A DNA stretch of 30,192 bases from a virus. Where the stretch lies: IMG/VR virus record IMGVR_UViG_3300029258_004408, positions 1-30,192 of that record, one strand, 5' to 3'. The notes under the pieces were generated by a model. That model did no database searches. It had not been told where the DNA came from and worked only from the letters and a program-made list of their open reading frames with translations. How positions within the stretch are numbered: position 1 is the first letter of the stretch; each line of letters begins with the position of its first letter. Below, piece after piece: positions 10,385 through 23,462 of the stretch. Both the position numbers and the translations under genes were made by a program.

Positions 10385-10461
10385 TGGAGCCACCTGTGGG
10401 ATTCGAACCCACAATCTCCTCATTACGAGTGAGGCGCTCTACCAATTGAAGCTAAGGTGGC
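10385..10461 (-). tRNA. tRNA-Thr(CGT)
   Basis: Acceptor GCCACCT pairs with AGGTGGC, discriminator T and an encoded CCA follow. The anticodon arm CCTCA-CTCGTAA-TGAGG gives anticodon CGT. It is the last tRNA before the operon terminator. Confidence 0.95.
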
Positions 10462-10463
10462 AA

Positions 10464-10538
10464 TGGAGCTGCCGATGGGATTCGAACCCATGGCCTCCTC
10501 CTTACCAAGGAGGTGCTCTACCACTGAGCTACGACAGC
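10464..10538 (-). tRNA. tRNA-Thr(GGT)
   Basis: Acceptor GCTGTCG pairs with CGGCAGC (one G-U), discriminator T, encoded CCA. Anticodon arm CCTCC-TTGGTAA-GGAGG gives GGT. The upstream small gene uses bases 8-10 of this tRNA (TAG) as its stop codon. Confidence 0.95.
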
Positions 10539-10687
10539 TTACAACATTCAATTTCTCGATCCAACTCTATACAAATCCTAAGACAATCCTCGTCAGATAC
10601 CTCAAAAGGCACCACGATAGAATAGCTCGGATCAATAAAGCTTTTCCGCATTTCTCTCCTAAAATAGACTTCCTGCTCTTCCGTCAT
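10529..10687 (-). CDS. Small acidic protein, stop codon inside tRNA-Thr
   Basis: A 52-codon frame starts at ATG 10687 behind GGAAAGGAATA and ends at TAG 10529-10531. The protein begins MTEEQEVYFRREMRKSFIDP and ends with EIECCKLS. Strong Shine-Dalgarno, sensible amino-acid content and exact fit between two tRNAs support a real gene. The last 10 bases overlap the 5' end of tRNA-Thr(GGT), so 5' processing of that tRNA by RNase P would cut the message near its stop codon. Function unknown. Confidence 0.7.
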   Translation of the reverse strand: MTEEQEVYFRREMRKSFIDPSYSIVVPFEVSDEDCLRICIELDREIECCKLS

Positions 10688-10707
10688 TATTCCTTTCCTC
10701 TCTAAAT

Positions 10708-10794
10708 TGGTGGCCGAGGAGGGACTTGAACCCTCACGTCCCGAAGGACATGTGATTTTGAATCACACGCGTCTGCCAGTTCCACCACTCGGCC
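10708..10794 (-). tRNA. tRNA-Leu(CAA)
   Basis: Class II tRNA with acceptor GGCCGAG/CTCGGCC, discriminator A, encoded CCA and a long variable arm closed by a UUCG loop. Anticodon arm TGTGA-TTCAAAA-TCACA gives CAA. Confidence 0.95.
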
Positions 10795-10797
10795 ACA

Positions 10798-10830
10798 TGG
10801 TAGGCGAGGCGGGATTTGAACCCGCTTGGA
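10798..10830 (-). pseudogene. 3' fragment of a tRNA
   Basis: A complete T-arm (GCGGG-TTCAAAT-CCCGC), an acceptor 3' strand CTCGCCT, discriminator A and CCA are present, but there is no 5' half. It lies in the 41 bases between two tRNA-Leu genes. It looks like the remnant of a tRNA removed by recombination between repeated tRNA genes. Confidence 0.75.
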
Positions 10831-10835
10831 AACGT

Positions 10836-10923
10836 TGGTGCGGTAGGCGGGATTCGAACCCGCATGGACTATGAGTCCACTTGATTTTAAGTCAAGCGAG
10901 TATGCCTGTTCCTCCACTACCGC
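10836..10923 (-). tRNA. tRNA-Leu(TAA)
   Basis: Acceptor GCGGTAG/CTACCGC, discriminator A, encoded CCA, long variable arm. Anticodon arm CTTGA-CTTAAAA-TCAAG gives TAA. Confidence 0.95.
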
Positions 10924-10966
10924 TTTCTGCTCCTTGATCAAGATGTCTACCTGTCCCATCACTCGC

Positions 10967-11041
10967 TCAAATCCTTACAAATCGAACAGCATGGGTAGGA
11001 TTTTCACCTGTTTTAACGCCTATAACGCACATGCTGCCCAT
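10967..11041 (-). CDS. Possible 24-aa peptide
   Basis: ATG at 11041 directly follows the TAA of the preceding gene, and the frame runs 24 codons to TGA. It reads MGSMCVIGVKTGENPTHAVR and ends FVRI. The initiation context (TTGGGAATAA) is weak and may depend on translational coupling. It could be chance. Confidence 0.3.
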   Translation of the reverse strand: MGSMCVIGVKTGENPTHAVRFVRI

Positions 11042-11251
11042 TTATTCCCAATCCTCACTGTCAGCACGCCACTCGGCAAAAATCGCAATTACCATTCGAG
11101 TTTCTTCACTCAAATCAAACCAAATTTCACGAAAATTGCTCGGAATATAATTGCGCCAATCATGCACTTTTTGAGCGCTCTCAAACTGCGGATTGTTGAC
11201 ATCGCAGTTATAAAAGAAGTTTGTTTCTTGAAACTGTTGTCTGACATCCAT
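11042..11251 (-). CDS. Hypothetical 69-aa acidic protein
   Basis: A 69-residue protein beginning MDVRQQFQETNFFYNCDVNN and ending FAEWRADSEDWE. The start has AAGGAGTTGTAA, a strong site that begins 14 bases after the CCA of tRNA-Arg(CCT). It is aromatic and acidic, with no membrane segment. I do not recognise the family. It is one of many small protein genes wedged between tRNAs in this operon. Confidence 0.75.
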   Translation of the reverse strand: MDVRQQFQETNFFYNCDVNNPQFESAQKVHDWRNYIPSNFREIWFDLSEETRMVIAIFAEWRADSEDWE

Positions 11252-11264
11252 TTACAACTCCTTT

Positions 11265-11341
11265 TGGTACTCCCGGCGTGACTCGAACACGCAACCTCCG
11301 GTTTAGGAAACCAGCGCTCTATCCTGTTGAGCTACGGGAGC
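11265..11341 (-). tRNA. tRNA-Arg(CCT)
   Basis: Acceptor GCTCCCG/CGGGAGT (terminal G-U), discriminator A, encoded CCA. Anticodon arm CTGGT-TTCCTAA-ACCGG gives CCT, which reads the rare codon AGG. Confidence 0.93.
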
Positions 11342-11351
11342 TCTTTCAAGT

Positions 11352-11428
11352 TGGTAGCGGTGACTGGAATCGAACCAGTGGCCTTCGGGGTATGAATCCG
11401 ATGCTCTATCCATCTGAGCTACACCGCC
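11352..11428 (-). tRNA. tRNA with CAT anticodon (Met elongator or Ile2)
   Basis: Acceptor GGCGGTG/CACCGCT, discriminator A, encoded CCA. Anticodon loop TTCATAC gives CAT; the stem TCGGA/CCCGA has an A-C mismatch next to the loop. Whether it is elongator Met or a lysidine-modified Ile tRNA cannot be decided by eye. The initiator form is a separate gene at 19300. Confidence 0.9.
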
Positions 11429-11438
11429 TTATCAAAAG

Positions 11439-11514
11439 TGGCAGGGGATGGAGGACTCGAACCCCCAACACAAGTTTAGAAGACTCGTATGATATCCAGT
11501 TTCACCAATCCCCC
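11439..11514 (-). tRNA. tRNA-Arg(TCT)
   Basis: Acceptor GGGGGAT/ATCCCCT, discriminator G, encoded CCA. Anticodon arm CGAGT-CTTCTAA-ACTTG gives TCT (reads AGA/AGG). The T-stem holds a G-U pair. Confidence 0.92.
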
Positions 11515-11521
11515 GTAAATC

Positions 11522-11597
11522 TGGTGGATGCGGTGGGACTCGAACCCACAACTTCCTGATTAAGAGTCAGGCTTTCTACCAGTTGAATTACGCATCC
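11522..11597 (-). tRNA. tRNA-Lys(CTT)
   Basis: Acceptor GGATGCG/CGCATCC, discriminator A, encoded CCA. Anticodon arm CCTGA-CTCTTAA-TCAGG gives CTT. It is the first tRNA downstream of the RNase P-like RNA. Confidence 0.95.
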
Positions 11598-11600
11598 AAT

Positions 11601-11678
11601 AAAGGAAATGGATGTTCAGGTTCGCACGTGCAATAATCCCCCGAACACAGATGAAATTTTCATCCTTCCATTTCCTTT
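11601..11678 (-). other. Three-way hairpin linking RNase P-like RNA to tRNA-Lys
   Basis: A perfect 12-bp helix pairs 11667-11678 with 11601-11612. Inside lie a 7-bp hairpin (650-656 with 658-664 of the 11,000 block) and a 5-bp pair GTTCG/CGAAC (11642-11646 with 11620-11624) containing a GCACGTGC palindrome. Its CCTGAAC (minus strand, 11620-11614) is also the exact complement of GTTCAGG in the P4 5' strand at 11864-11858, so it could compete with P4 before processing. The helix ends three bases before the tRNA-Lys start. Confidence 0.6.
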
Positions 11679-11689
11679 CACAATCAAAA

Positions 11690-11876
11690 CTCTCATCGAC
11701 GAGTTCTAAGTAGTCAGGATTCTGTTTTCCAACTCGTCATTCATCTTTGCCACAACCCGCTCCTTCCTGCTGCTCACCCAGTCCAAATGGAGCCTATTTG
11801 TGTTGCATCCTCGGTAGTGCAAACGACCTCCTTGTCTCCTACCTTCAGCAGTGATGTCCTGAACTTCCTATGAGAG
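11690..11876 (-). ncRNA. rnpB: RNase P RNA-like ribozyme, circularly permuted
   Basis: No protein frame fits here, but the minus strand carries the bacterial RNase P RNA core. CR-I appears as AGGAAGTTCAGGA (from 11869). Its AG-U-UCAGGA (11865-11857) pairs with UCCUGACU (11719-11712), forming P4 with the conserved bulged U. CR-V ACAGAA (11725-11720) directly precedes the P4 3' strand. The J18/2 sequence GATGAATGAC is at 11745-11736, and CAACACAAATAGG matches the conserved CCAAAUAGG region. P5 is CATC/GATG. P2 pairs GACGAGTT (11738-11731) with AACTCGTC (11705-11698), which lies 3' of P4, and P3 pairs CTCTCAT (11876-11870) with ATGAGAG (11696-11690). In standard RNase P these P2 and P3 strands lie 5' of P4, so the order is circularly permuted. 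P1 is replaced by the linker ACTTAG. The specificity domain is very short. Catalysis of tRNA 5' maturation is inferred. Confidence 0.85.
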
Positions 11877-11882
11877 CCAGAA

Positions 11883-11958
11883 TGGTAGCCCTGAACGGAA
11901 TCGAACCGTTGTCTCTGGCGTATCAGACCAGCGCTCTATCACATTGAGCTACAGGGCT
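11883..11958 (-). tRNA. tRNA-Ile(GAT), copy 1
   Basis: Acceptor AGCCCTG region pairs CAGGGCT, discriminator A, encoded CCA. Anticodon arm CTGGT-CTGATAC-GCCAG gives GAT. It lies immediately upstream of the RNase P-like RNA, so its 3' processing would help release that RNA's 5' end. Confidence 0.94.
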
Positions 11959-11961
11959 GTA

Positions 11962-12038
11962 TGGTGGACGTGAGTGGAGTCGAACCACCGGCCTCTCGCT
12001 TATCAGGCGAACGCTCTGACCAACTGAGCTACACGTCC
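11962..12038 (-). tRNA. tRNA-Ile(GAT), copy 2
   Basis: Acceptor GGACGTG/CACGTCC, discriminator A, encoded CCA. Anticodon arm TTCGC-CTGATAA-GCGAG gives GAT. Its anticodon stem is identical to that of the permuted tRNA at 18201-18278, so the two may share origin. Confidence 0.95.
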
Positions 12039-12044
12039 AAAAAC

Positions 12045-12122
12045 TGGTGAGCGCGGTGGGATTCGAACCCACGACCACCGGATTAAAAATCCGATGCTCT
12101 AACCGGACTGAGCTACGCGCCC
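12045..12122 (-). tRNA. tRNA-Lys(TTT), copy 1
   Basis: Acceptor GGGCGCG/CGCGCTC, discriminator A, encoded CCA. Anticodon arm TCGGA-TTTTTAA-TCCGG gives TTT. Confidence 0.94.
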
Positions 12123-12134
12123 GTTCTGCAAATG

Positions 12135-12143
12135 TCAAAGAAC
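12135..12143 (-). promoter_or_regulatory. boxA-like element upstream of tRNA-Lys
   Basis: Minus strand GTTCTTTGA followed by CA, so TGTTCTTTGACA, close to the rRNA antitermination boxA consensus TGCTCTTTAACA. The TGA inside it is also the stop codon of the upstream cysteine-rich gene. One of four copies in the operon. Confidence 0.5.
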
Positions 12144-12362
12144 ACTCCCTACTGCATGACATTTGTTTTCATGTTCCGTTTGGCAACTGCCACAAACAGG
12201 TGCATAACAAAGCAAATTATGTGTCGTTACACCGCATTCGTGTGTTGCCTGAGCTCCGCACATACAACACTCAACTCCTTCGTGGTCATTACAATAACCA
12301 CTCCCATTGTCATCGTACGGGCATTGCTCAGAGTTAACCTTTATCCACGCACATCGAGCCAT
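12135..12362 (-). CDS. Cysteine-rich zinc-ribbon-like protein, 75 aa
   Basis: I start it at ATG 12362, behind CAGGAGAGAATA, because the longer upstream frame only translates tRNA-Gln. The 75-residue protein begins MARCAWIKVNSEQCPYDDNG and has about eleven Cys plus several His (CCMCG, THECG, CYAPVCGSC). That spacing points to two small zinc-binding knuckles. Such proteins often bind nucleic acid or partner proteins, but no family is recognised. Its stop codon lies inside a boxA-like element. Confidence 0.78.
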   Translation of the reverse strand: MARCAWIKVNSEQCPYDDNGSGYCNDHEGVECCMCGAQATHECGVTTHNLLCYAPVCGSCQTEHENKCHAVGSVL

Positions 12363-12376
12363 TATTCTCTCCTGTT

Positions 12377-12451
12377 TGGCTGCCTCGCGAGGATTTGAAC
12401 CTCGACCAACTGATTCAGAGTCAGTCATGCTACCAATTACACCACGAGGCA
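12377..12451 (-). tRNA. tRNA-Gln(CTG)
   Basis: Acceptor TGCCTCG/CGAGGCA, discriminator G, encoded CCA. Anticodon arm ACTGA-CTCTGAA-TCAGT gives CTG. Confidence 0.94.
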
Positions 12452-12452
12452 A

Positions 12453-12746
12453 CTACCTAACACTTACTTTACCAGCAGGTGTATGTTTTCTAACCCAAAG
12501 AACGAACTTCGCAATTTCCGGGTGAGCTTTGAGCAACTCCAGCGTATTATACTTCAACGCCAACTCTTTTTCCGGTATCGTTACGTGAACCATTTTATGA
12601 CAATTACGACACAAGCTAACTTTGCGTCTCTTCATCTCATCCCTACTAAACAATTTTCGAACACGCTTATTGCTATGCACTGTCCGAGGAATAAGATGGT
12701 GCTCATTAACATCATCTCGCTCTTGTCCGCACAGTTCACAACGCAT
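12453..12746 (-). CDS. HNH endonuclease, 97 aa
   Basis: The 97-residue protein starts MRCELCGQERDDVNEHHLIP and later has CRNCHKMVH. The CxxC...HH...CxxCH order is the zinc-bound beta-beta-alpha metal site of HNH nucleases. Such small HNH enzymes in phages are usually free-standing homing endonucleases or packaging accessories. Its position inside the tRNA array fits a mobile homing gene. It overlaps the preceding gene's end by 11 bases and ends one base before the tRNA-Gln gene, so it is probably coupled in translation. Confidence 0.85.
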   Translation of the reverse strand: MRCELCGQERDDVNEHHLIPRTVHSNKRVRKLFSRDEMKRRKVSLCRNCHKMVHVTIPEKELALKYNTLELLKAHPEIAKFVLWVRKHTPAGKVSVR

Positions 12747-13080
12747 TCATAAATTCCTCAATATCCACTCGGTCCAGATACCACTGGAACGAATGAGGAA
12801 AAGGCAAAACACAAATACCATACTCCAAAATCGGACAAAAGTCGTCATTCAAAATCTCGTTGGCCATTTCTTCAGCAACTTCCAATGCTTTCTCTGCATT
12901 ATTATAAACAGTTGTTCCAAAGTAATAGCGAACAATTTCTTTCGGATTTCCTTCACCCGGCTTCTTTTCCTCCCAGTTCAAATTCTCAATCGCTTGAGCA
13001 TGAATCACTCGGTACTCAAACTTGTTAGCGCCTTCTGTTACTGGCGTCTTCAAAACATAGATGCCATTGTCTGCTGACAT
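12736..13080 (-). CDS. Conserved phage-type hypothetical, 114 aa
   Basis: The 114-residue protein begins MSADNGIYVLKTPVTEGANK, a start I have seen in several phage hypothetical proteins. It continues with EYRVIHAQAIENLNW and ends with FPHSFQWYLDRVDIEEFMNAL. It is soluble and acidic. Initiation is by a GAGGAGCAAAG leader just downstream of tRNA-Ser(GGA). It overlaps the HNH gene start. No function is known to me. Confidence 0.82.
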   Translation of the reverse strand: MSADNGIYVLKTPVTEGANKFEYRVIHAQAIENLNWEEKKPGEGNPKEIVRYYFGTTVYNNAEKALEVAEEMANEILNDDFCPILEYGICVLPFPHSFQWYLDRVDIEEFMNAL

Positions 13081-13094
13081 CTTTGCTCCTCAAA

Positions 13095-13183
13095 TGGCGG
13101 AAGCGGCAGGACTCGAACCTGCAACTCTCAAAAGAGAGCACCTGACTTCCAATCAGGCTGGCTACCAATTACCACACGCTTCC
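13095..13183 (-). tRNA. tRNA-Ser(GGA)
   Basis: Class II. Acceptor GGAAGCG/CGCTTCC, discriminator G, encoded CCA. Anticodon arm CCTGA-TTGGAAG-TCAGG gives GGA; long CTCTCTTTTGAGAG variable arm. Confidence 0.95.
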
Positions 13184-13187
13184 TTGA

Positions 13188-13276
13188 TGGCGGAGGTGGA
13201 GGGACTTGAACCCCCAAGCCTCGAAAGAGGCCACCCGATTTCGAATCGGGCCGAATACCAATTATCGCACACCTCC
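13188..13276 (-). tRNA. tRNA-Ser(CGA)
   Basis: Class II. Acceptor GGAGGTG/CACCTCC, discriminator G, encoded CCA. Anticodon arm CCCGA-TTCGAAA-TCGGG gives CGA. The upstream membrane-protein gene ends inside its 5' end. Confidence 0.95.
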
Positions 13277-13483
13277 TTCTGAATCACTAAACAACCAACA
13301 CACAAAAATGAACAACCAAAAAACACTTCGAAAAATTGCTACTACCCAACTCACCATTTTGTAAACCGAATCATGACGGTGTCGTTTGGGCGGTTCTTCA
13401 TCGCACATCTTTCTGTATTCAACAGCAAAGACTCCCAACGCAATAACAGCGTAGATTCCTAATACACCCAGTATCCAATGCAT
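13262..13483 (-). CDS. Small two-helix membrane protein
   Basis: Starting at ATG 13483 gives 73 residues: a first hydrophobic helix in HWILGVLGIYAVIALGVFAV, a charged loop (RKMCDEEPPKRHRHD) and a second hydrophobic stretch (VVAIFRSVFWLFIFVCWLF). It is thus a predicted inner-membrane hairpin. There is no clear Shine-Dalgarno site; the ATG lies only five bases after the CCA of tRNA-His. The longer frame upstream only reads tRNA-His, so I reject it. The last 15 bases, including the TAA, lie within tRNA-Ser(CGA). Possible roles such as holin or superinfection exclusion are guesses. Confidence 0.6.
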   Translation of the reverse strand: MHWILGVLGIYAVIALGVFAVEYRKMCDEEPPKRHRHDSVYKMVSWVVAIFRSVFWLFIFVCWLFSDSEGGVR

Positions 13484-13488
13484 CTTAA

Positions 13489-13564
13489 TGGGGTGGCATA
13501 CGGGAATCGAACCCGTACTTCGACATCCACAGTGTCGTGTGCAAGCCGCTACACTAATGCCACC
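13489..13564 (-). tRNA. tRNA-His(GTG)
   Basis: Acceptor GTGGCAT/ATGCCAC with the His-specific extra G at -1 facing C73, then CCA. Anticodon arm CGACA-CTGTGGA-TGTCG gives GTG. Confidence 0.95.
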
Positions 13565-13626
13565 ACAAACGCTGCCAATGCAATTACAATCCAAATGAGA
13601 CAACCAAATGTCCCGTCAAACTTCAT
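13549..13626 (-). CDS. 25-aa membrane peptide, stop inside tRNA-His
   Basis: ATG 13626 follows a strong AAAGGAGAAAA site. The 25-residue product starts MKFDGTFGCLIWIVIALAAF and ends VVALV, one hydrophobic helix. Its TAG (13549-13551) lies in the D-arm of tRNA-His, a 16-base overlap. The strong ribosome site and clean helix support a real gene. Function unknown. Confidence 0.65.
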   Translation of the reverse strand: MKFDGTFGCLIWIVIALAAFVVALV

Positions 13627-13644
13627 TTTTCTCCTTTCAATAAG

Positions 13645-13719
13645 TGGCTGGCCCGCCAGGACTCGAACCTGGAATACAAGGACCAAAACCTTGTGTGTTG
13701 CCAATTACACCACGAGCCA
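13645..13719 (-). tRNA. tRNA-Gln(TTG)
   Basis: Acceptor TGGCTCG/CGGGCCA, discriminator G, encoded CCA. Anticodon arm CAAGG-TTTTGGT-CCTTG gives TTG. Confidence 0.94.
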
Positions 13720-13720
13720 A

Positions 13721-14059
13721 TTATTCGTATCGCGCTTTCAGTTTTTTAAGCAATGCTCGTTCTTTCTTCTCCTTTTCACGCTTCCGTTTTGCAGCAGCTT
13801 TTTTTGCTGCTTTGCTACGCTTTAAGCGTCTTGCAAGCTCTGCATTCGTCTCCAATCGTTCGCCCCAAAATTCAAAATGGCAACTATCATAATCTATTTC
13901 GTGAACCATCCTGATATTACGAAAGCCTTTTGATTCACAATACTTTTTTACAGCTCTCAACATCTTGATAATGTCATCAATGAGTTCTGTTTCACAAAAC
14001 TCATCAAACATTTCCAACGTTACAGGAATTTCTTTCTTGACCCACTTCTTCTTTTCCAT
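13721..14059 (-). CDS. Hypothetical 112-aa protein with basic tail
   Basis: I start at ATG 14059 behind CAGGAGAATAGAA, because the upstream frame reads tRNA-Arg. The 112-residue protein begins MEKKKWVKKEIPVTLEMFDE and has an alpha/beta-looking body (FRNIRMVHEIDYDSCHFEFW). Its last 40 residues are very Lys/Arg/Ala-rich and likely a charged helix or nucleic-acid-binding tail. The initiation sequence is identical over 17 bases to that of the caspase gene. No family recognised. Confidence 0.8.
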   Translation of the reverse strand: MEKKKWVKKEIPVTLEMFDEFCETELIDDIIKMLRAVKKYCESKGFRNIRMVHEIDYDSCHFEFWGERLETNAELARRLKRSKAAKKAAAKRKREKEKKERALLKKLKARYE

Positions 14060-14077
14060 TTCTATTCTCCTGACAAA

Positions 14078-14155
14078 TGGCACGCCCGGCAGGACTCGAA
14101 CCTGCAACAGTCCTGATCCGTAGTCAGGTGCCCTATCCAATTAGGCGACGGGCGC
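14078..14155 (-). tRNA. tRNA-Arg(ACG)
   Basis: Acceptor GCGCCCG/CGGGCGT, discriminator G, encoded CCA. Anticodon arm CCTGA-CTACGGA-TCAGG gives ACG, which in bacteria needs A34 deamination. Confidence 0.94.
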
Positions 14156-14156
14156 A

Positions 14157-14288
14157 TTACCAATGAAAGTCAGGTTTCCAAAAACGCATCAACCACTGCG
14201 TAATTCTCAACACAATCCACAATGGCTGCATCAATACCATCAAAGACACAAAAACAACAATACACACTCGGTCTTTCCGCGTCTTCAT
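14157..14288 (-). CDS. 43-aa membrane peptide
   Basis: ATG 14288 gives MKTRKDRVCIVVFVSLMVLM followed by another hydrophobic stretch (PLWIVLRITQWLMRFW). One or two membrane segments are likely. The ATG lies six bases after the CCA of tRNA-Ser(TGA) and has no Shine-Dalgarno site, as for the 73-residue membrane gene. The stop is one base before tRNA-Arg(ACG). The hydrophobic pattern and fit between tRNAs support it, but the start is uncertain. Confidence 0.5.
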   Translation of the reverse strand: MKTRKDRVCIVVFVSLMVLMQPLWIVLRITQWLMRFWKPDFHW

Positions 14289-14294
14289 AGTGTA

Positions 14295-14386
14295 TGGCGG
14301 AGAGTGAGGGATTCGAACCCCCGGTGACATTACTGCCACTCTGGTTTTCAAAACCAGTGCAATAAACCTGACTCTGCCAACTCTCC
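14295..14386 (-). tRNA. tRNA-Ser(TGA)
   Basis: Class II. Acceptor GGAGAGT/ACTCTCC, discriminator G, encoded CCA. Anticodon arm CTGGT-TTTGAAA-ACCAG gives TGA. Confidence 0.95.
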
Positions 14387-14545
14387 TTATCCTATCAGTT
14401 CTTTCATTGCAACAGCGTGCTCATAAAGCTGTTTGACTTTTTGGTCGTTCCCATCCAACTTTTTCAATAACTCAAGGTCTTCCAAAACGTTGACCATTCT
14501 CTTTTCAATCCGCTCCAACTTCCTCACCTTCTGAGCTTGTGACAC
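14387..14545 (-). CDS. 52-aa helical peptide with GTG start
   Basis: GTG 14545 follows AAAGGAGAAGTCG, an excellent site. The product begins with VSQAQKVRKLERIEKRMVNV (first residue Met in the protein) and ends HAVAMKELIG. It is a charged helix with regularly spaced Leu/Val, probably a coiled coil. The stop codon abuts the first base of tRNA-Ser(TGA). No family recognised. Confidence 0.75.
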   Translation of the reverse strand: MSQAQKVRKLERIEKRMVNVLEDLELLKKLDGNDQKVKQLYEHAVAMKELIG

Positions 14546-14568
14546 CGACTTCTCCTTTCATTTGCTTG

Positions 14569-14658
14569 TGGCGGAGAGAGTGGGATTCGAACCCACGGAG
14601 GTTTTACCCTCACAGCATTAGCAATGCTGCGCAATAAACCTGGCTCTGCCATCTCTCC
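14569..14658 (-). tRNA. tRNA-Ser(GCT)
   Basis: Class II. Acceptor GGAGAGA/TCTCTCC, discriminator G, encoded CCA. Anticodon arm CAGCA-TTGCTAA-TGCTG gives GCT. Confidence 0.95.
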
Positions 14659-14698
14659 ACATTAACCCTCTCGTGGTTCATCAGCATATGGTGCTAAA

Positions 14699-15130
14699 TC
14701 ATGACCTACTCTTCATAAATTCATCAACCCACTGCTTCCAAAGTCCATCTAAAACACTTGTCGACCAAATGTTTGTTCTTGGGACAAGCACTAACTTTGC
14801 ACCAATCTCCTTACATGTAGGTGCCTCGGGACAGTCGTACCCGTACTCTTTGCCCGTACAGTGTACCTGTGGTTGAACTTTCTTGATAAACTCTGACGGG
14901 TTCGACTCCTCAAAGACAATAATATCTTTGATAAAACCCAAAGCAAGCAAAGTTTCTCTGCGTTTCTCAGCCGTGAAAAAAGGCTGTTCACGTTTCTTTC
15001 TCCTGATATAGTCGTCACAGTTGATCCCGACAACCAGCTCGTCACCTTGTGCATAACAGTAACCCAAATAGAAAAGGTGGCCAGGATGGATTCCATCAAA
15101 ACATCCATTACAAGTAACGGTTGTCGTCAC
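14699..15130 (-). CDS. Cytidylyltransferase-family nucleotidyltransferase
   Basis: The 143-residue protein has the hallmark of the HxGH nucleotidyltransferase superfamily: GCFDGIHPGHLFYLGYC near the N-terminus (HPGH at residues 15-18) and a late RTNIWSTSVL that corresponds to the RxxxxSTS motif. Length and order fit TagD/RfaE-C-type enzymes, which transfer a nucleotide to a phosphorylated sugar or polyol. In a phage it could feed modification of nucleotides or surface glycans; the substrate is unknown. It starts with GTG at 15130, overlapping the stop of the upstream 54-residue gene (GTGA), so translation is probably coupled. It is the only recognisable metabolic enzyme in the tRNA operon. 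Confidence 0.82.
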   Translation of the reverse strand: MTTTVTCNGCFDGIHPGHLFYLGYCYAQGDELVVGINCDDYIRRKKREQPFFTAEKRRETLLALGFIKDIIVFEESNPSEFIKKVQPQVHCTGKEYGYDCPEAPTCKEIGAKLVLVPRTNIWSTSVLDGLWKQWVDEFMKSRS

Positions 15131-15291
15131 AGCTGGACCCTTTCCGGTTGTTTGTGAGCGTGAATGCGTTGCAGCTTAGCATCCAGCTGGTCAACGCTGT
15201 GAAACTTGAGAAACTTTTGTGCACGCTCACGCGCTTGAACATCATCAATTGCTGTAAGACGCAGCTTTACTGTAACGAGGTACTGTTTCAT
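15127..15291 (-). CDS. Small 54-aa protein coupled to nucleotidyltransferase
   Basis: ATG 15291 follows AAAGGGGGTGCTAA. The product begins MKQYLVTVKLRLTAIDDVQA and ends HAHKQPERVQL, with a beta strand and then a charged helix (REAQKFL-like). Its TGA overlaps the GTG start of the nucleotidyltransferase. Good ribosome site and coupling support a real gene; the function is unknown. Confidence 0.75.
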   Translation of the reverse strand: MKQYLVTVKLRLTAIDDVQARERAQKFLKFHSVDQLDAKLQRIHAHKQPERVQL

Positions 15292-15310
15292 TTAGCACCC
15301 CCTTTCTTTT

Positions 15311-15386
15311 TGGTGGACGCGGACGGACTCGAACCGTCAACTTCCTCCTTGTAAGAGAGGTACTCTACCAATTGAGCTACGCGTCC
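15311..15386 (-). tRNA. tRNA-Val(TAC)
   Basis: Acceptor GGACGCG/CGCGTCC, discriminator A, encoded CCA. Anticodon arm CCTCT-CTTACAA-GGAGG gives TAC. Confidence 0.95.
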
Positions 15387-15388
15387 AA

Positions 15389-15595
15389 TCAGTCCACCCA
15401 TTGAATCTTAATGCCAGGCCCAAAAGTTCTTTCGAGTACTTTTTCTACCATGCTGAAAACTGCGTATTCTTTTTTCTGCACAGGTTCGCCTTTCGGCTGA
15501 ATCTTATAGCTTGGCCAACCTTCGCCAATGCTATAGATGTACGCAACCGTTTTTTCTCCGACATCCGCACGAGCACAGACTTTCACTTCATCCAT
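15389..15595 (-). CDS. Hypothetical 68-aa protein
   Basis: A 68-residue protein starting MDEVKVCARADVGEKTVAYI and ending FGPGIKIQWVD, with AAAGGGGGTTTATA before its ATG. It looks like a compact beta-rich domain (AYIYSIGEGWPSYKI). Its start overlaps the stop of a possible 16-residue leader peptide (TAATG). No family recognised. Confidence 0.75.
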   Translation of the reverse strand: MDEVKVCARADVGEKTVAYIYSIGEGWPSYKIQPKGEPVQKKEYAVFSMVEKVLERTFGPGIKIQWVD

Positions 15596-15645
15596 TATAA
15601 ACCCCCTTTCTTATTTATATAACTGTGCTCCATGGATTTTTGCAT
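15595..15645 (-). CDS. Possible 16-aa leader peptide
   Basis: ATG 15645, with AAAGAGGG directly in front, encodes MQKSMEHSYINKKGGL. Its TAA overlaps the ATG of the next gene. It may be a coupling leader rather than a functional peptide. Confidence 0.35.
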   Translation of the reverse strand: MQKSMEHSYINKKGGL

Positions 15646-15654
15646 CCCTCTTTT

Positions 15655-15731
15655 TGGTGGGCGATAGTGGATTCGAACCACTGACTTCCAGCTTGTCGAG
15701 CTGGCGCTCTTACCAGCTGAGCTAATCGCCC
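15655..15731 (-). tRNA. tRNA-Val(GAC)
   Basis: Acceptor GGGCGAT/ATCGCCC, discriminator A, encoded CCA. Anticodon arm CCAGC-TCGACAA-GCTGG gives GAC. Bases 8-10 (TAG) are also the stop of the upstream gene. Confidence 0.95.
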
Positions 15732-15889
15732 TTTTTGAGATTCTTTTCTTCCTTTTCCAAAAACCTGATTGCCGGATTCACGTATTTTTCAACATCCGCA
15801 ATCTGTATGTGTGGGCAATAACCCATATGATCACACTTGTTTTTCAAACTTCTCAATTCTCTCAAGGCTCTCGTAATATTGTGCATCAT
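15722..15889 (-). CDS. 55-aa helical protein, stop inside tRNA-Val
   Basis: Two adjacent ATG codons (15889 and 15886) follow CAGGGAGCGTA; the second has the better spacing. The product starts MMHNITRALRELRSLKNKCD and ends FLEKEEKNLKKGD. It has a CDHMGYCPH cluster that could bind metal, then a charged helix. The TAG stop is formed by T8-A9-G10 of tRNA-Val(GAC), a 10-base overlap. Function unknown. Confidence 0.72.
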   Translation of the reverse strand: MMHNITRALRELRSLKNKCDHMGYCPHIQIADVEKYVNPAIRFLEKEEKNLKKGD

Positions 15890-15905
15890 TACGCTCCCTG
15901 TAAAG

Positions 15906-15992
15906 TGGTGGCGCTGGAGGGAGTCGAACCCTCACGAGCCGAAGCTCACTACACCCTGAATGTAGCGCGTCTGCCAGTTTCACCACAGCGCC
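15906..15992 (-). tRNA. tRNA-Leu(CAG)
   Basis: Class II. Acceptor GGCGCTG/CAGCGCC, discriminator A, encoded CCA. Anticodon arm CTACA-TTCAGGG-TGTAG gives CAG. Its first base is the last base of the upstream stop codon. Confidence 0.95.
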
Positions 15993-16357
15993 TAAATGAT
16001 TCTCCTTACGATAATGGGTGGAGTTTTTGCTACCCATTCTGCTTTTCTTCTTTTGCACTCTTCACACACACAACCAAACCACCAATAGTCCTTATCCGGC
16101 ACTATCTCTTCAGCATCTTTCTGGCTCATTTTGAACTTCCAACGAATATGCCGAATGATTTTGTCGTCATCCCAACCTTTCCTGTGCAATCCGAATGCGA
16201 TTGTTTTTGGGAGCCAACATTGTCTGTCTTTGTATGGCTCATCCAAAGAAGTAGGCGGAATGGCTCTTTTACGAACTCCATTCCTTACAGCACGTCTGTG
16301 TCCACCCCGAACCAGCCTAAACGGATTTGGGCTGTACTTCTTACGCGTTCTACTCAT
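15992..16357 (-). CDS. Hypothetical basic 121-aa protein
   Basis: The 121-residue protein begins MSRTRKKYSPNPFRLVRGGH and is strongly basic at the N-terminus. A middle part (WKFKMSQKDAEEIVPDKDYW) is followed by FGCVCEECKRRK, a possible zinc site. It ends exactly at the first base of tRNA-Leu(CAG). Its ATG lies in the 3' strand of a perfect 10-bp hairpin with the AAGGAG site in the loop, and two mini-frames precede it, so translation may be regulated. Basicity suggests RNA or DNA binding, and autoregulation is conceivable. No family recognised. Confidence 0.78.
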   Translation of the reverse strand: MSRTRKKYSPNPFRLVRGGHRRAVRNGVRKRAIPPTSLDEPYKDRQCWLPKTIAFGLHRKGWDDDKIIRHIRWKFKMSQKDAEEIVPDKDYWWFGCVCEECKRRKAEWVAKTPPIIVRRII

Positions 16358-16388
16358 GTTAGGTCTCCTTATTTAAGAACCTAACATG
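16355..16388 (-). promoter_or_regulatory. Translational operator-like hairpin over the start codon
   Basis: Positions 16355-16364 and 16379-16388 are perfect 10-bp complements (CATGTTAGGT/ACCTAACATG). In RNA the AAGGAG ribosome site is in the 14-base loop and the AUG of the 121-residue gene is in the 3' stem. A protein or the RNA fold could block initiation here. Confidence 0.6.
16373..16387 (-). CDS. Mini-ORF MLGS before the basic protein
   Basis: ATG 16387 after a perfect AGGAGG encodes MLGS and stops at TAA 16373. Its ATG lies in the 5' strand of the hairpin. Ribosomes on it would open the hairpin. It may be a leader peptide. Confidence 0.3.
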   Translation of the reverse strand: MLGS

Positions 16389-16413
16389 GCGTACCTCCTA
16401 CTGAGCGAGTCAT
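16381..16413 (-). CDS. Mini-ORF MTRSVGGTPC before the basic protein
   Basis: ATG 16413 after AAAGGAGAGAATT encodes a 10-residue peptide ending at TAG 16381, inside the 5' strand of the hairpin. Strong ribosome site and overlap with the next mini-ORF suggest a leader arrangement. Confidence 0.35.
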   Translation of the reverse strand: MTRSVGGTPC

Positions 16414-16431
16414 AATTCTCTCCTTTGAAAA

Positions 16432-16505
16432 TGGAGCCGCCTATCGGAATTGGACCGATATCTGAGGGTTACAAAGCCTCTGTTCTGCCATTGAACTAAG
16501 GCGGC
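16432..16505 (-). tRNA. tRNA-Thr(TGT)
   Basis: Acceptor GCCGCCT/AGGCGGC, discriminator T, encoded CCA. Anticodon arm GAGGC-TTTGTAA-CCCTC gives TGT with a C-C mismatch. The T-loop reads TCCAATT instead of TTCRANT, which is unusual. Confidence 0.88.
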
Positions 16506-16513
16506 CCATCATC

Positions 16514-17086
16514 TTATCGTCCTTTACTCAAACATATTCGACACTTTTCTTGCTTCAAATTTCTACTGATTTCTTTCCCACAACACACACAACGCTTATA
16601 AACAGGTTCTTTTTTCCTCTGTCCTCTCGAAAAAGTCGGCTGTTGGCTATCACAATTAGGACAAAGAAAACGCAAATTTTTCAACCTGTTGTCATTATTG
16701 ACTCCATTAGCATGATCCAAAATCAAATTCAGCGGTTTCCCTCTCCAAATTGGTTTCAGACCACATATGGCACATTCATACTTCAATAATCCCTCTTCAA
16801 GAATTCGAACTTTTAGCAAACCTCTCGAATAACTCGAATCCCTAACCAGTATTTCTTTTAACGGTTTTCTCTTTTTCCAACTCCAACCGTGTGTTTTTCC
16901 ACGCAGATGTCCTTGTCCTAAAAAATGCGAAACATCTAACTGAAGTCTCTCTATGTGTTTTTTGACCGTTCCATAATTTCCAGCATGATTTTTGTTCAAG
17001 CCAAGCTTTTCAATCACCTGTGCATATGAAATCGATTTTTTAACTGCTTGAACAAGTTGCACATCTGCCCATTTCCTTCTTGCCAT
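16514..17086 (-). CDS. HNH homing endonuclease, 190 aa
   Basis: The 190-residue protein has an N-terminal helix-turn-helix-like part (SYAQVIEKLGLNKNHAGNYG) and then a zinc HNH core: CAICG near residue 105, LILDHANGVNNDNRLKNLRF with the catalytic DH-N, and CPNCDSQQPTF. The C-terminus has another CxxC...CxxC (CVCCGKEI, KCRIC). This is a common type of phage free-standing homing endonuclease that cuts related genomes to copy itself. It sits between tRNA-Leu(GAG) and tRNA-Thr(TGT). The AGGAGG site directly follows the CCA of the upstream tRNA. Confidence 0.88.
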   Translation of the reverse strand: MARRKWADVQLVQAVKKSISYAQVIEKLGLNKNHAGNYGTVKKHIERLQLDVSHFLGQGHLRGKTHGWSWKKRKPLKEILVRDSSYSRGLLKVRILEEGLLKYECAICGLKPIWRGKPLNLILDHANGVNNDNRLKNLRFLCPNCDSQQPTFSRGQRKKEPVYKRCVCCGKEISRNLKQEKCRICLSKGR

Positions 17087-17096
17087 AAAGACCTCC

Positions 17097-17182
17097 TGGT
17101 GTGGGTGAGAGGATTCGAACCTCCACGTCCTTTGGACACTTGGCCCTCAACCAAGCCTGTCTACCAGTTCCAGCACACCCAC
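17097..17182 (-). tRNA. tRNA-Leu(GAG)
   Basis: Class II. Acceptor GTGGGTG/CACCCAC, discriminator A, encoded CCA. Anticodon arm CTTGG-TTGAGGG-CCAAG gives GAG. Confidence 0.95.
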
Positions 17183-17185
17183 ACA

Positions 17186-17395
17186 TCAACCTTGCGTGTC
17201 TGCCAGTTTCACCACTTGCGCATTGTCAAACAATTCACAACCCACACTATGTTCAGGCCAATCAGGAAAAACTCTTCCCATCACTACACAAGCCCATCCT
17301 CGTTTTTCATTCATTGGCTTACCATCCGTACAGGGATGAGAAAACATAGGCCAATGGTTTTTGCACTTGCAACAACATTCATCAATCCCGCACAT
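17186..17395 (-). CDS. Cysteine-rich protein fused to a tRNA remnant
   Basis: ATG 17395 behind GGAGTGGTACA gives 69 residues starting MCGIDECCCKCKNHWPMFSH. The dense cysteines (CGIDECCCKC) suggest zinc binding. After FPDWPEHSVGCELFDN the last twelve residues (AQVVKLADTQG-like) are encoded by a truncated tRNA-Leu, so the original C-terminus was probably lost when that remnant was joined to it. Frame extension upstream reads tRNA-Asn and is rejected. Family unknown. Confidence 0.65.
   Translation of the reverse strand: MCGIDECCCKCKNHWPMFSHPCTDGKPMNEKRGWACVVMGRVFPDWPEHSVGCELFDNAQVVKLADTQG
17187..17220 (-). pseudogene. 5' fragment of tRNA-Leu
   Basis: Acceptor 5' strand GCGCAAG, a Leu-type D-arm (GTGGTGAAACTGGCAGACAC) and the start of an anticodon stem are present. 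The sequence then runs straight into tRNA-Leu(GAG) without anticodon, T-arm or acceptor 3' strand. It is a deletion remnant and forms the tail of a protein gene. Confidence 0.8.
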
Positions 17396-17415
17396 TGTAC
17401 CACTCCAAAAAAAGT

Positions 17416-17491
17416 TGGCTCCACAGCCAGGACTCGAACCTGGAACAAACTGGTTAACAGCCAGCTGCTCTACCAATTGAGCTACTGTGGA
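17416..17491 (-). tRNA. tRNA-Asn(GTT), copy 1
   Basis: Acceptor TCCACAG/CTGTGGA, discriminator G, encoded CCA. Anticodon arm GCTGG-CTGTTAA-CCAGT gives GTT. Confidence 0.94.
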
Positions 17492-17494
17492 ACA

Positions 17495-17586
17495 TGGCTG
17501 ACAGGTGAGGACTCGAACCTCATTTCTCGGTCTACGCAGAGACCCAAGAAAGCTTCCCACGCCCCATTAGGCTTTCGCTCCTGCCA
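17495..17586 (-). tRNA. Atypical tRNA-like gene, anticodon unresolved
   Basis: Acceptor TGGCAGG/CCTGTCA, a normal T-arm (TGAGG-TTCGAGT-CCTCA), discriminator G and CCA are clear, so it is tRNA-like at 92 nt. No normal anticodon arm is found. The visible stems are GAAAGC/GCTTTC with a 17-base loop and GGTCT/AGACC with a 6-base CTGCGT loop. Either the second is an anticodon arm with a shortened loop (then GCG, Arg) and the D-arm is enlarged, or it is a class II variable arm and the anticodon arm is degenerate. Confidence 0.6.
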
Positions 17587-17590
17587 ATAA

Positions 17591-17664
17591 TGGCTCCGGT
17601 ACTTGGATTCGAACCAAGACAGACTGGTTAACAGCCAGCTATGCTACCGTTACATCATACCGGA
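17591..17664 (-). tRNA. tRNA-Asn(GTT), copy 2
   Basis: Acceptor TCCGGTA/TACCGGA, discriminator G, encoded CCA. Anticodon arm GCTGG-CTGTTAA-CCAGT gives GTT, identical to copy 1 in the anticodon arm but not in the acceptor. Confidence 0.94.
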
Positions 17665-17670
17665 ATAAAT

Positions 17671-17742
17671 CCAGCACCAAAAATCGCAATGAGCTTGGGT
17701 TTCCTCAAATGGAAGAAGTATCTCATTGCTGAAGCGTACTGG
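17671..17742 (-). ncRNA. 72-nt hairpin RNA module, copy 1
   Basis: The RNA starts CCAGTAC and ends GTGCTGG (7 bp with one G-U). An internal loop GCTTCAG faces CGATTTTTG, then comes a perfect 7-bp stem CAATGAG/CTCATTG and an apical part with a TTCC/GGAA hairpin. The same outer stem and the same internal-loop sequences bracket the permuted tRNA at 18169-18303, so this is a repeated module. Its function is unknown; I know no matching ribozyme or riboswitch. Confidence 0.6.
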
Positions 17743-17750
17743 ATTTCTTT

Positions 17751-17759
17751 TCAAAGAAC
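17751..17759 (-). promoter_or_regulatory. boxA-like element before module copy 1
   Basis: Minus strand TGTTCTTTGAAAA, which matches the boxA form I recall from Bacillus rRNA operons. It lies between tRNA-Val(CAC) and the 72-nt module. Confidence 0.5.
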
Positions 17760-17761
17760 AA

Positions 17762-17837
17762 TGGTGGGCGATAGAGGACTCGAACCTCTGATCTCTTGGT
17801 TGTGATCCAAGCGTTCTACCAACTGAACTAATCGCCC
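17762..17837 (-). tRNA. tRNA-Val(CAC)
   Basis: Acceptor GGGCGAT/ATCGCCC, discriminator A, encoded CCA. Anticodon arm CTTGG-ATCACAA-CCAAG gives CAC. Its acceptor is identical to tRNA-Val(GAC). Confidence 0.94.
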
Positions 17838-17843
17838 AAATTC

Positions 17844-17921
17844 TGGTCGGTGCGACTGGAATCGAACCAGCATTTATCCACATTAAAAGTGTGGCGCAAG
17901 ACCAATATTTGCTACGCACCG
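17844..17921 (-). tRNA. tRNA-Lys(TTT), copy 2
   Basis: Acceptor CGGTGCG/CGCACCG, discriminator A, encoded CCA. Anticodon arm CCACA-CTTTTAA-TGTGG gives TTT. It differs widely from copy 1, so it is not a recent duplicate. Confidence 0.93.
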
Positions 17922-17931
17922 ATCACTGTAT

Positions 17932-18008
17932 TGGCGGAGCTGACGGGACTCGAACCCGCAACCCTCGGATCGACAGTCCGATACTCTTACCAGTTGAGCT
18001 ACAGCTCC
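17932..18008 (-). tRNA. tRNA-Asp(GTC), copy 1
   Basis: Acceptor GGAGCTG/CAGCTCC, discriminator G, encoded CCA. Anticodon arm TCGGA-CTGTCGA-TCCGA gives GTC. Confidence 0.95.
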
Positions 18009-18009
18009 A

Positions 18010-18086
18010 TGGCGGCTCTGACCGGACTTAAACCGGCTTCCTCTACCTTGACAGGGTAGTGACTCGTTCACTTCGTCTTCAGAGCC
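18010..18086 (-). tRNA. tRNA-Asp(GTC), copy 2
   Basis: Acceptor GGCTCTG/CAGAGCC, discriminator G, encoded CCA. Anticodon arm CTACC-CTGTCAA-GGTAG gives GTC; T-loop TTTAAGT and a D-arm rich in A/G are divergent. One base separates it from copy 1. Confidence 0.88.
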
Positions 18087-18088
18087 TT

Positions 18089-18163
18089 TGGTGACCCTAC
18101 AGGGATTCGAACCCTGAATGCCAGACTGAGAATCTGGTGAGTTGCCAGTTACTCCATAGGGCC
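18089..18163 (-). tRNA. tRNA-Glu(CTC)
   Basis: Acceptor GGCCCTA/TAGGGTC, discriminator A, encoded CCA. Anticodon arm CCAGA-TTCTCAG-TCTGG gives CTC. Confidence 0.94.
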
Positions 18164-18168
18164 AATTC

Positions 18169-18303
18169 CCAGTACCAAAAATCGCAGAGAGAAATTTTAG
18201 CGCTCTACCAATTGAGCTATACACAACCGAAGTTGTGCAACAGGACTCGAACCTGCAACCTCTCGCTTAATAGGCGAAGTAACCCTCCACTGAAGCGTAC
18301 TGG
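18169..18303 (-). tRNA. Circularly permuted tRNA, anticodon ATT, within module copy 2
   Basis: In transcript order this RNA has the module strand CCAGTACGCTTCAG, then a tRNA 3' half (18278-18232: anticodon arm TTCGC-CTATTAA-GCGAG, variable AGGTT, T-arm GCAGG-TTCGAGT-CCTGT, acceptor TGCACAA, C). A UUCG loop follows, then the tRNA 5' half (18226-18201: acceptor TTGTGTA, TA, D-arm GCTC-AATTGGTA-GAGC, G). The module strand CGATTTTTGGTACTGG closes it. The acceptor halves pair 7 of 7 (one G-U) plus a C-G pair that caps the UUCG tetraloop. Joined at positions 26/27 the halves form a complete tRNA with anticodon ATT. There is no intact 5' half in front of the 3' half. Whether it matures to a functional tRNA is unknown. 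Confidence 0.7.
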
Positions 18304-18310
18304 AAAGTTC

Positions 18311-18385
18311 TGGTGACGCTACGGGGACTCGAACCCCGAATTTCAGGCTGAAAACCTGATGTGTTTCCAATTACACCATAGCGCC
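18311..18385 (-). tRNA. tRNA-Glu(TTC)
   Basis: Acceptor GGCGCTA/TAGCGTC, discriminator A, encoded CCA. Anticodon arm TCAGG-TTTTCAG-CCTGA gives TTC. Confidence 0.95.
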
Positions 18386-18399
18386 GTAAAATTTAATTG

Positions 18400-18408
18400 T
18401 CAAAGAAC
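18400..18408 (-). promoter_or_regulatory. boxA-like element before tRNA-Glu(TTC)
   Basis: Minus strand AGTTCTTTGACA, in the gap between the HNH gene stop and tRNA-Glu(TTC). TTGACA could also be read as a -35 box, but the matching -10 would put the start inside the tRNA. Confidence 0.45.
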
Positions 18409-18417
18409 TTCGCAAGC

Positions 18418-18951
18418 CTACGCAATGTATGGCTTCCATTGCGCATATTCTGGCTTTTCCGCATGATGCCTATACAGAATGCCTCGATGCGGCGTAATTG
18501 GCTTTCTCATCAGCTTTTTACCTGTCTGCTTCTCGAACTCGGCAGCCTTCAGGTCATCCTTTTCATTGTTGCATGGCTCACAACAAGCAACCACATTTCT
18601 CCACGTATTTGTACCACCCTTAGCCAGGGGAAATACATGATCGATTGTGCCATTTACTGATGTCAGCTTTCTACCACAATACTGACACGTAAAATTGTCC
18701 CTGATCATTACATTCTGACGAGTCAGCGGCAGAATGTTCGAGTGCGGGTACTTATCCTTGTTATCCAGCAGAATAAGCACTGATGGCAGCTTGAACGACT
18801 GACGCTGAGAATGCACTTCAACATCCTCATGAAACATCAGAGGAAATGCTGTATTGCCACGAAAGTAAGCCAGGTTGATTGCTGTCTTCCAACAAATCAC
18901 ACCCAGCACTCTTCCACCACGTCCAAGCAGTAGTGAATTTCTCAGTCTCAT
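18418..18951 (-). CDS. HNH endonuclease, 177 aa
   Basis: The 177-residue protein has an N-terminal part (VLGVICWKTAINLAYFRGNT) typical of a widespread HNH family, then LTRQNVMIRDNFTCQYCGRK, IDHVFPLAKGGTNTWRNVVA and CCEPCNNEKDD. These give the two CxxC zinc pairs and the H-N-N catalytic set. A free-standing homing endonuclease or a host-like HNH nuclease is likely. The start at ATG 18951 is preceded by AAAGGGG at somewhat long distance, so it could begin slightly later. A terminator lies only about 30 bases upstream, which means the gene needs antitermination or its own promoter. Confidence 0.87.
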   Translation of the reverse strand: MRLRNSLLLGRGGRVLGVICWKTAINLAYFRGNTAFPLMFHEDVEVHSQRQSFKLPSVLILLDNKDKYPHSNILPLTRQNVMIRDNFTCQYCGRKLTSVNGTIDHVFPLAKGGTNTWRNVVACCEPCNNEKDDLKAAEFEKQTGKKLMRKPITPHRGILYRHHAEKPEYAQWKPYIA

Positions 18952-18978
18952 CTGCCATCAACCCCTTTCTTCATCTCA

Positions 18979-19012
18979 TAAAAAAACCGCCAGCTTTTAT
19001 TGCTGACGGTTT
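18979..19012 (-). terminator. Rho-independent terminator after structured RNA
   Basis: On the minus strand AAACCGTCAGC and GCTGGCGGTTT form an 11-bp stem (one mismatch or G-U) with an AATAAAA loop, followed by TTTTA. It ends the initiator tRNA plus structured RNA segment and would reduce transcription into the rest of the array unless antiterminated. Confidence 0.88.
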
Positions 19013-19299
19013 GAATTCCTTTCTCCCCATCAGCTTAGCTTGTATCTTCGTTATTCTTTTGATTCTGCAATTTGGTAATTCTTGACGACATAGCAGACAG
19101 CAAGCCCGTGACGCACGTTCTAACTCGCACGTAGGGCCTGCAACTAAGTCGTCCGGTATGTACTAACGCTATTGGAAACATTTCATCACCTAAAAATGAT
19201 TCTCGCACGGCTCCCATGAGAACTGCGTCGTGTGTCCTCGGAGGCCCGTCCCGCAGAGCGCCCTCTGGTATTTCGGCTTCAGCGAGAACCTTATTTCTC
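19013..19299 (-). ncRNA. Candidate structured RNA downstream of initiator tRNA
   Basis: This 287-base stretch is more GC-rich than its surroundings and lies between tRNA-Met and a terminator. It has nested complements: GGTTCTCGC (19290-19282) with GCGAGAATC (19206-19198), enclosing a CAGAG/CTCTG hairpin at 19254-19267; and GACGAC/GTCGTC (19153-19148 with 19089-19084) enclosing GCAGGCCC/GGGCTTGC (19141-19134 with 19107-19100). A 60-codon frame crosses it (ATG 19217) but the translation looks like that of a structured RNA. It lacks the tmRNA tag and tRNA-like ends, and I cannot name a family. Confidence 0.6.
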
Positions 19300-23441: not shown

Positions 23442-23462
23442 TTCTATTCTCCTGATATAATT

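Follow-up and report, generated by a model that had tools for sequence, protein, structure and literature searches.

The stretch of DNA analysed here, hereafter the window, comprises positions 1 to 30,192 of IMG/VR virus record IMGVR_UViG_3300029258_004408. Its minus strand carries an array of tRNA genes, slightly fewer than the roughly 34 that an earlier note on this sequence had estimated, whether counted with ARAGORN or with Rfam (Table 1). Within the array, between genes for tRNA-Ile(GAT) and tRNA-Lys(CTT) that both encode CCA, is a 187 nt sequence in which all the core elements of bacterial RNase P RNA (P RNA) can be read directly. The encoded CCA of the tRNA-Ile(GAT) gene ends 6 nt before the 5' end of this RNA, which lies in P3. 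The earlier note's placement of the RNA inside a tRNA array is borne out by both programs, and the letters and coordinates it gave for 11690-11876 are correct, except that it had the 5' strand of P4 following CR-I, when the two actually overlap.

No promoter- or terminator-like site was seen around the P RNA gene. The minus strand between it and the tRNA-Lys gene (11602-11676) can form a strong branched hairpin, with an 11-bp stem and two inner hairpins (z -3.1). Elsewhere on the same strand of the window are CDSs for a 714 aa caspase-like protein (Peptidase_C14) that is split by an HNH-containing intein (21363-23507), and a class II (B12-dependent) ribonucleotide reductase (24516-27194), for which the nearest INPHARED record is that of the uncultured 485-kb phage LR745208 (41.5%).

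Table 1. Position of the P RNA gene, its elements and the surrounding tRNA genes in the window
Feature	Position	Strand	Basis
tRNA array, all on the P RNA strand	10385..19374	-	32 tRNA genes (ARAGORN), 33 tRNA matches (Rfam)
tRNA-Ile(GAT), directly upstream of P RNA	11883..11958	-	ARAGORN
tRNA-Lys(CTT), downstream of P RNA	11522..11597	-	ARAGORN
Gene for the circularly permuted minimal RNase P RNA (187 nt core)	11690..11876	-	sequence; R1 and RF00010 matches
Same gene, P3 lengthened by two G.U pairs	11688-11878	-	sequence
P3 3' strand CTCTCAT, 5'-terminal in the permuted RNA	11870..11876	-	pairs with 11690-11696; geometry test
A between P3 3' strand and CR-I	11869	-	sequence
CR-I GGAAG	11868-11864	-	sequence; aligned to RF00010 and R1
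P4 5' strand AG-(U)-UCAGGA, bulged U	11865-11857	-	sequence; aligned to RF00010 and R1
P5 CATC / GATG	11856-11853 / 11809-11806	-	sequence; R1 alignment
Reduced P7-P9-like arm GGTAG...CTACC, enclosed by P5	within 11806..11856	-	sequence; R1 alignment
P6 CTGCTG / CAGCAG (3' strand)	11851-11846 / 11772-11767	-	sequence; RF00010 and R1 alignments
GCAACACAAATAGG	11806-11793	-	sequence; RF00010 and R1 alignments
Helix GCTCC / GGAGC	11793-11789 / 11763-11759	-	sequence; RF00010 and R1 alignments
CGGGTT, counterpart of L15 GGU	11759-11754	-	sequence; RF00010 and R1 alignments
J18/2 AGATGAATGAC, running into P2 3' strand	11746-11736	-	sequence; R1 alignment
P2 3' strand GACGAGTT	11738-11731	-	sequence; R1 alignment
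CR-V ACAGAA	11725-11720	-	sequence; R1 alignment
P4 3' strand UCCUGACU	11719-11712	-	sequence; R1 alignment
Linker ACTTAG joining former 3' and 5' ends	11711-11706	-	sequence
P2 5' strand AACTCGTC (permuted segment 11690..11705)	11705-11698	-	sequence; geometry test; shuffles
G between P2 and P3 5' strands	11697	-	sequence
P3 5' strand ATGAGAG (permuted segment)	11696-11690	-	sequence; geometry test; shuffles

Organisation of the RNA

The RNA is bacterial in type, type-A-like and phage-encoded. The features that identify a bacterial RNase P RNA, namely the bulged U of P4, CR-I, CR-V, J18/2 and the L15 GGU, are all present and, together with P2, P3, P5 and P6, are held in common with the type A molecule (RF00010, rnpB). 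It differs from the latter in being permuted, in lacking P1, in its length, in its reduced specificity domain and in its situation in a phage tRNA array. The arm enclosed by P5, a helix that covaries across the family of phage P RNAs described below, is small, and no P10-P12, CR-II or CR-III was seen in it. The L15 GGU pairs with the RCCA at the tRNA 3' end, according to the accessible text of PMC9433436.

The 5' strands of P2 and P3 are found 3' of P4, and a 6 nt linker stands in place of P1; the GG at 11878-11877 could lengthen P3 by two G.U pairs. The junctions, P2-G-P3 and P3-A-GGAAG, are as in standard relatives, and it is only in the permuted order that P2 and P3 are joined to P4 as they are in the rest of the family. 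Its departure from the standard order P1-P2-P3-P4, which is unnecessary for the fold, makes the RNA a variant. The earlier note had proposed the permuted order, new ends in P3 and a short linker in the place of P1, and all of these are upheld by the sequence, a rotated covariance model and a geometry test taken together. MFE folding (z -1.1) is uninformative here since the RNA contains a pseudoknot.

Tests of the permuted order

Against the Rfam model RF00010, the window segment without the permuted strands scored 21.6 bits (E 3.9e-5), and the RNA 25.3 bits when the entire record was searched, both far below the gathering score of 100 bits. Two covariance models were built from ten phage P RNAs of standard order. 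For one (R1), the RNAs were opened in silico at the P3 loop, deprived of P1 and their halves exchanged, and for the other (R2) they were left unrotated; neither the window RNA nor the only other permuted RNA found, that of record L005, was used in training either of them. R1 matched the window at 11692-11874 over the entire model (1-174 of 174) with a score of 101.9 bits (E 2.2e-24 in 226 kb), as against 91.1 bits for R2, and the corresponding scores for L005 were 101.3 and 91.0 bits. The median difference, R1 minus R2, among 59 other P RNAs was -18.6 bits. It was slightly positive in five of these, all of standard order (L151, +8.3; L006, +7.8; L023, +5.3; L155, +1.0; L004, +0.6), hence the difference in score is supporting evidence only, and not proof. 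L006 and L151, odd by score, are standard in order by inspection, and L004, which at first appeared permuted or split, was rejected as a candidate, as its order is standard and its P3 contains an HNH ORF.

Direct proof of the permutation, which the difference between model scores does not give, is provided by the placement of the 5' strands of P2 and P3. With the geometry fixed, the window RNA has 8+9 P2/P3 pairs on the downstream side and no more than 5 upstream, and the resulting difference (+12) is the largest among 59 phage P RNAs. The second largest (+4) is that of L005, with 7+6 pairs downstream and 9 upstream; no other RNA in this test had a comparable downstream excess at the family junction. 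Nor was any upstream match to P2/P3 comparable to the downstream one found over the 160 nt before the window RNA. When the 3' flank was shuffled with dinucleotide composition retained, using a geometry fixed beforehand from standard relatives, the P2+P3 complementarity of the window was not reached once in 60,000 trials; with a loose geometry it was reached in 14 of 20,000. The pairing in L005 was reached in 109 of 60,000 shuffles and, taken alone, is only moderately significant.

The earlier note had named three outcomes that would refute it: the lack of a covariance model match after rotation, the lack of compensatory changes in P2, P3 and P4 among relatives, and a standard-order rnpB elsewhere in the genome with this region untranscribed. 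The first two were not encountered, as R1 matches the RNA and compensatory changes in P2 and P3 are present relative to L005; nor was a standard-order rnpB found in the window record, although this is a 30-kb fragment; no second P RNA of any kind was found in this fragment or in the L005 record. Of the properties expected of a natural circularly permuted RNA, the swapped order of the segments and the helices are seen, whilst only two sequences, both from metagenomic records, underlie the covariation for the permuted topology. We regard the topology of the window RNA as well supported.

A second permuted RNA in a distant phage

The window RNA and that of L005 are the only permuted examples among the more than 50 phage P RNAs found, and both are opened in P3. 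L005 is the 114,654-base record of a distant phage, against which the proteins of the window gave only three weak local matches, and has an array of about 40 tRNA genes. Its P RNA sits between tRNA-Leu and tRNA-Thr, with the 5' strand of P3 ending three nt before the latter. Both phages have perfect P2 and P3 helices, and the differences between the two phages are two-sided: in P3, pair 1 changes from A-U to C-G and pair 5 from G-C to A-U, and in P2 one pair has been lost on both strands. The bulged U of P4 is kept in both. The linker region of L005 (..TACGTAGAAC..) is similar to the ACTTAG of the window, and a scan with the linker pattern ACAGAANCCNGNNTANNTAGAAC found only L005, besides chance matches in protein-coding sequence. 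The L005 RNA had no blastn match in INPHARED. A tRNA-like hairpin is present at approximately 7755-7815 in L005, on the other side of the P RNA from that on which the branched hairpin is found in the window.

A family of standard-order phage RNase P RNAs

Pattern scans of IMG/VR and genome contigs, followed by covariance models, identified more than 50 distinct minimal P RNAs, around 170-240 nt long, in phages or mobile elements. Nearly all have the order P1-P2-P3-P4 with a closed P3 loop, and in this they (e.g. L003, L009, L014, L023, L136 and L042) are unlike the window RNA; the core and the junctions P2-G-P3 and P3-A-GGAA are identical in standard and permuted forms. The majority are in or near tRNA arrays, with several loci having no tRNA in the stretch examined. 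In an alignment of ten standard members P2 is a stack of seven pairs, individual positions having as many as four pair types, and P2, P3, P4 and P5 were all recovered by de novo covariation. The window RNA matches the model of this family whether it is unrotated (91.1 bits) or rotated (101.9 bits), and its nearest standard-order relatives, L148, L014 and L023, are about 75% identical to it. Within this large family of phage P RNAs, in which the standard order prevails, it is thus a rare permuted exception.

Among the phage P RNAs scored, only L002 passed the RF00010 gathering score, and direct Rfam scans of the loci L042, L136 and L009 listed tRNAs and no P RNA. The family is largely unannotated through the gathering threshold, even in a 735-kb phage genome. 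This genome, LR756501 (735,411 bases), and its duplicate LR756503 were the only records in INPHARED matched by the window RNA using blastn, and it carries a standard-order minimal P RNA at 5978-6183 of L042 (LR756501 175429-187505, reversed). The P4 helix of this RNA, which is missed by RF00010, is compensatorily changed (CGCGA/UCGCG), and a tRNA cluster lies approximately 4 kb away. A search with R1 of 50 whole records related through the class II ribonucleotide reductase of the window (58 loci found) detected no P RNA in any, hence the P RNA is sporadic.

A number of other loci have unusual features. A standard-order minimal P RNA lies beside 32 tRNAs in a 486,889-base contig of Achromobacter anxifer (L165), a bacterial assembly, where it may belong to a prophage or another mobile element. 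A tRNA-like sequence is inserted within the specificity arm of the phage P RNA in L040 (752-993, minus strand), whilst in L037 (3532-3699) the 5' half of the P RNA is replaced by coding-looking sequence, representing a split gene, a junction or a remnant. ARAGORN also identifies tRNA-Pyl (CTA) genes in two P-RNA-bearing phage contigs (L130 3246-3318 and L150 5592-5667), which could be amber suppressor tRNAs.

Origin of the permutation

A tree of P RNA bodies places the window RNA within a 21-row clade (support 96/98) that includes standard-order RNAs about 75% identical to it and excludes L005, which is elsewhere on a long branch. Forcing the two permuted RNAs together costs 10.75 log units and is not rejected (AU p = 0.16). 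A single origin would be favoured by the likeness of their linkers, CTACTTAGAAC and CTTACGTAGAAC. Neither the tree nor the likeness of the linkers decides whether the permutation arose once or twice.

P3 is a tolerant site, as a 185 aa HNH endonuclease ORF is found inside the P3 loop of L004 (11118-11675, minus strand), with the strands of P1, P2 and P3 flanking it, and P3 is long in the L023 RNA; being a peripheral hairpin, it may well tolerate opening. In the window gene the natural ends, at P1, are joined via the 6 nt linker and the molecule is reopened in the P3 loop. Circular permutations usually arise through duplication and subsequent trimming, and we infer that this one may have followed the same route. 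In L025 (4886-5300, minus strand), a complete minimal P RNA is flanked on either side by pieces of another, larger P RNA, an arrangement that suggests recombination or nested insertion.

Proposed function

The segment order, the conserved core, the compensatory P2/P3 pairing relative to L005 and the family membership of the window RNA are matters of observation. Its catalysis, ends and partner are inferred, and we consider it probable that it is a minimal RNase P ribozyme of the phage, circularly permuted in nature, and that it matures phage tRNAs with the host RnpA. The RNA would be transcribed within the tRNA array and released, in part at least, when the flanking tRNAs are processed, perhaps by the RNA itself; with P3 ending 6 nt from a tRNA in the window, and 3 nt from one in L005, such processing would set one end of the RNA. 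Given that P2 and P3 re-form, the usual catalytic core would be expected to form, and may then cleave the 5' leaders of the phage tRNAs. The reduced S-domain need be no obstacle to activity, since the C-domain of type A P RNA is catalytically active by itself, albeit less efficiently, in the accessible text of PMC5839562. RnpA (PF00825) was absent from 20 P-RNA-bearing records, including LR756501 (735 kb) and both permuted records, in a search that was positive for 10 of 14 control genomes. As no phage RnpA gene was found, the host protein is the likely binding partner.

The absence of a phage RnpA gene, which means that the RNA must use or capture the host protein, and the reduction of the S-domain are also compatible with a permuted P RNA that does not mature tRNAs, instead acting on the host RNase P by, for example, sequestering RnpA or shifting its choice of substrate. 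We think this unlikely, however, because nearly all catalytic-core positions (the bulged U of P4, CR-I, CR-V, J18/2 and the L15 GGU) are kept in over 50 diverse phage RNAs, which a decoy would not need, and because the majority of these RNAs are in or beside tRNA arrays. That P RNA genes recombine is evident from the complete copy beside fragments of another in L025, and L037 is without its 5' half; hence the window gene might be a functionless remnant of a scrambled P RNA gene, with the permutation as a recombination scar. This we judge to be very unlikely, as the conserved core positions are all undamaged, the junctions match those of standard relatives, and each permuted phage has perfect P2 and P3 helices, which differ compensatorily between the two.

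It is also conceivable that the permutation is confined to the gene, the transcript being circularised or ligated and re-cut to the standard order, or functioning as two pieces in the manner of permuted tmRNA; there are precedents in tmRNA, tRNA and SRP RNA genes in the accessible text of PMC10085705. In the window there is nothing to excise between P4 and P2, which are separated by a 6 nt linker without P1, hence there are no mature ends to re-create, and P3 can be closed in the linear RNA, making such a route highly improbable. Finally, chance resemblance or an assembly artefact, for which the reliance on a single 30-kb metagenomic record might be cited, is scarcely credible given the E value of 2e-24 with a model excluding the window, the same breakpoint in the distant L005 record and the failure of 60,000 shuffles to reproduce the pairing.

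A permuted ribozyme acting on the phage tRNAs remains the reading we prefer. Much more tentatively, and doubtful as a whole, phages may widely carry miniature RNase P RNAs that at least two lineages have independently re-cut at P3, the permuted enzyme excising itself from the tRNA operon; the idea of self-excision stems from one new end being within a few nt of a neighbouring tRNA in both permuted cases.

Relation to known RNAs and significance

RNase P RNA is one of two ribozymes present in nearly all life and, to our knowledge, the order of its segments has previously been taken as fixed. The type-T RNase P RNA of Pyrobaculum, reported on by Lai and colleagues in 2010 (cited in PMC5839562 and PMC12974513), is said to be a natural miniature with a reduced specificity domain; unlike the window RNA, it is archaeal, cellular and of standard order.

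Natural permutation of structured RNAs, which the window RNA shares, is known in hammerhead and twister ribozymes, group II introns and 5S rRNA, and in tmRNA, SRP and tRNA genes; RNase P RNA goes unmentioned in the 2023 paper that lists these (PMC10085705). Permuted RNase P RNAs with their natural ends joined and new ends elsewhere, as in the window, have been engineered, such as the human H1 RNA-substrate conjugates in the available text of PMC13022451, but these are laboratory-made. Theta ribozymes are likewise phage-encoded, lie beside phage tRNAs and have been proposed to act in tRNA processing, but are HDV-like, self-cleaving and located on the 3' side of the tRNA, as far as the accessible portion of PMC10879173 describes them. 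The text of PMC7162821, in which the largest phage described has the record length of LR756501, makes no mention of RNase P. No report of a phage-encoded P RNA, or of a naturally permuted one, was found in the accessible open literature, subscription papers and preprints not being covered, and within these bounds the natural permutation of RNase P RNA is apparently unreported.

The Rfam gathering threshold misses nearly all the phage P RNAs tested, including that of a 735-kb phage genome. A naturally permuted RNase P RNA implies that evolution is able to re-wire the connectivity of the backbone of this molecule. In the wider family, the RNA half of RNase P is supplied by the phage, which apparently relies on the RnpA of its host, and these RNAs make the independence of phages from their hosts in tRNA maturation directly testable.
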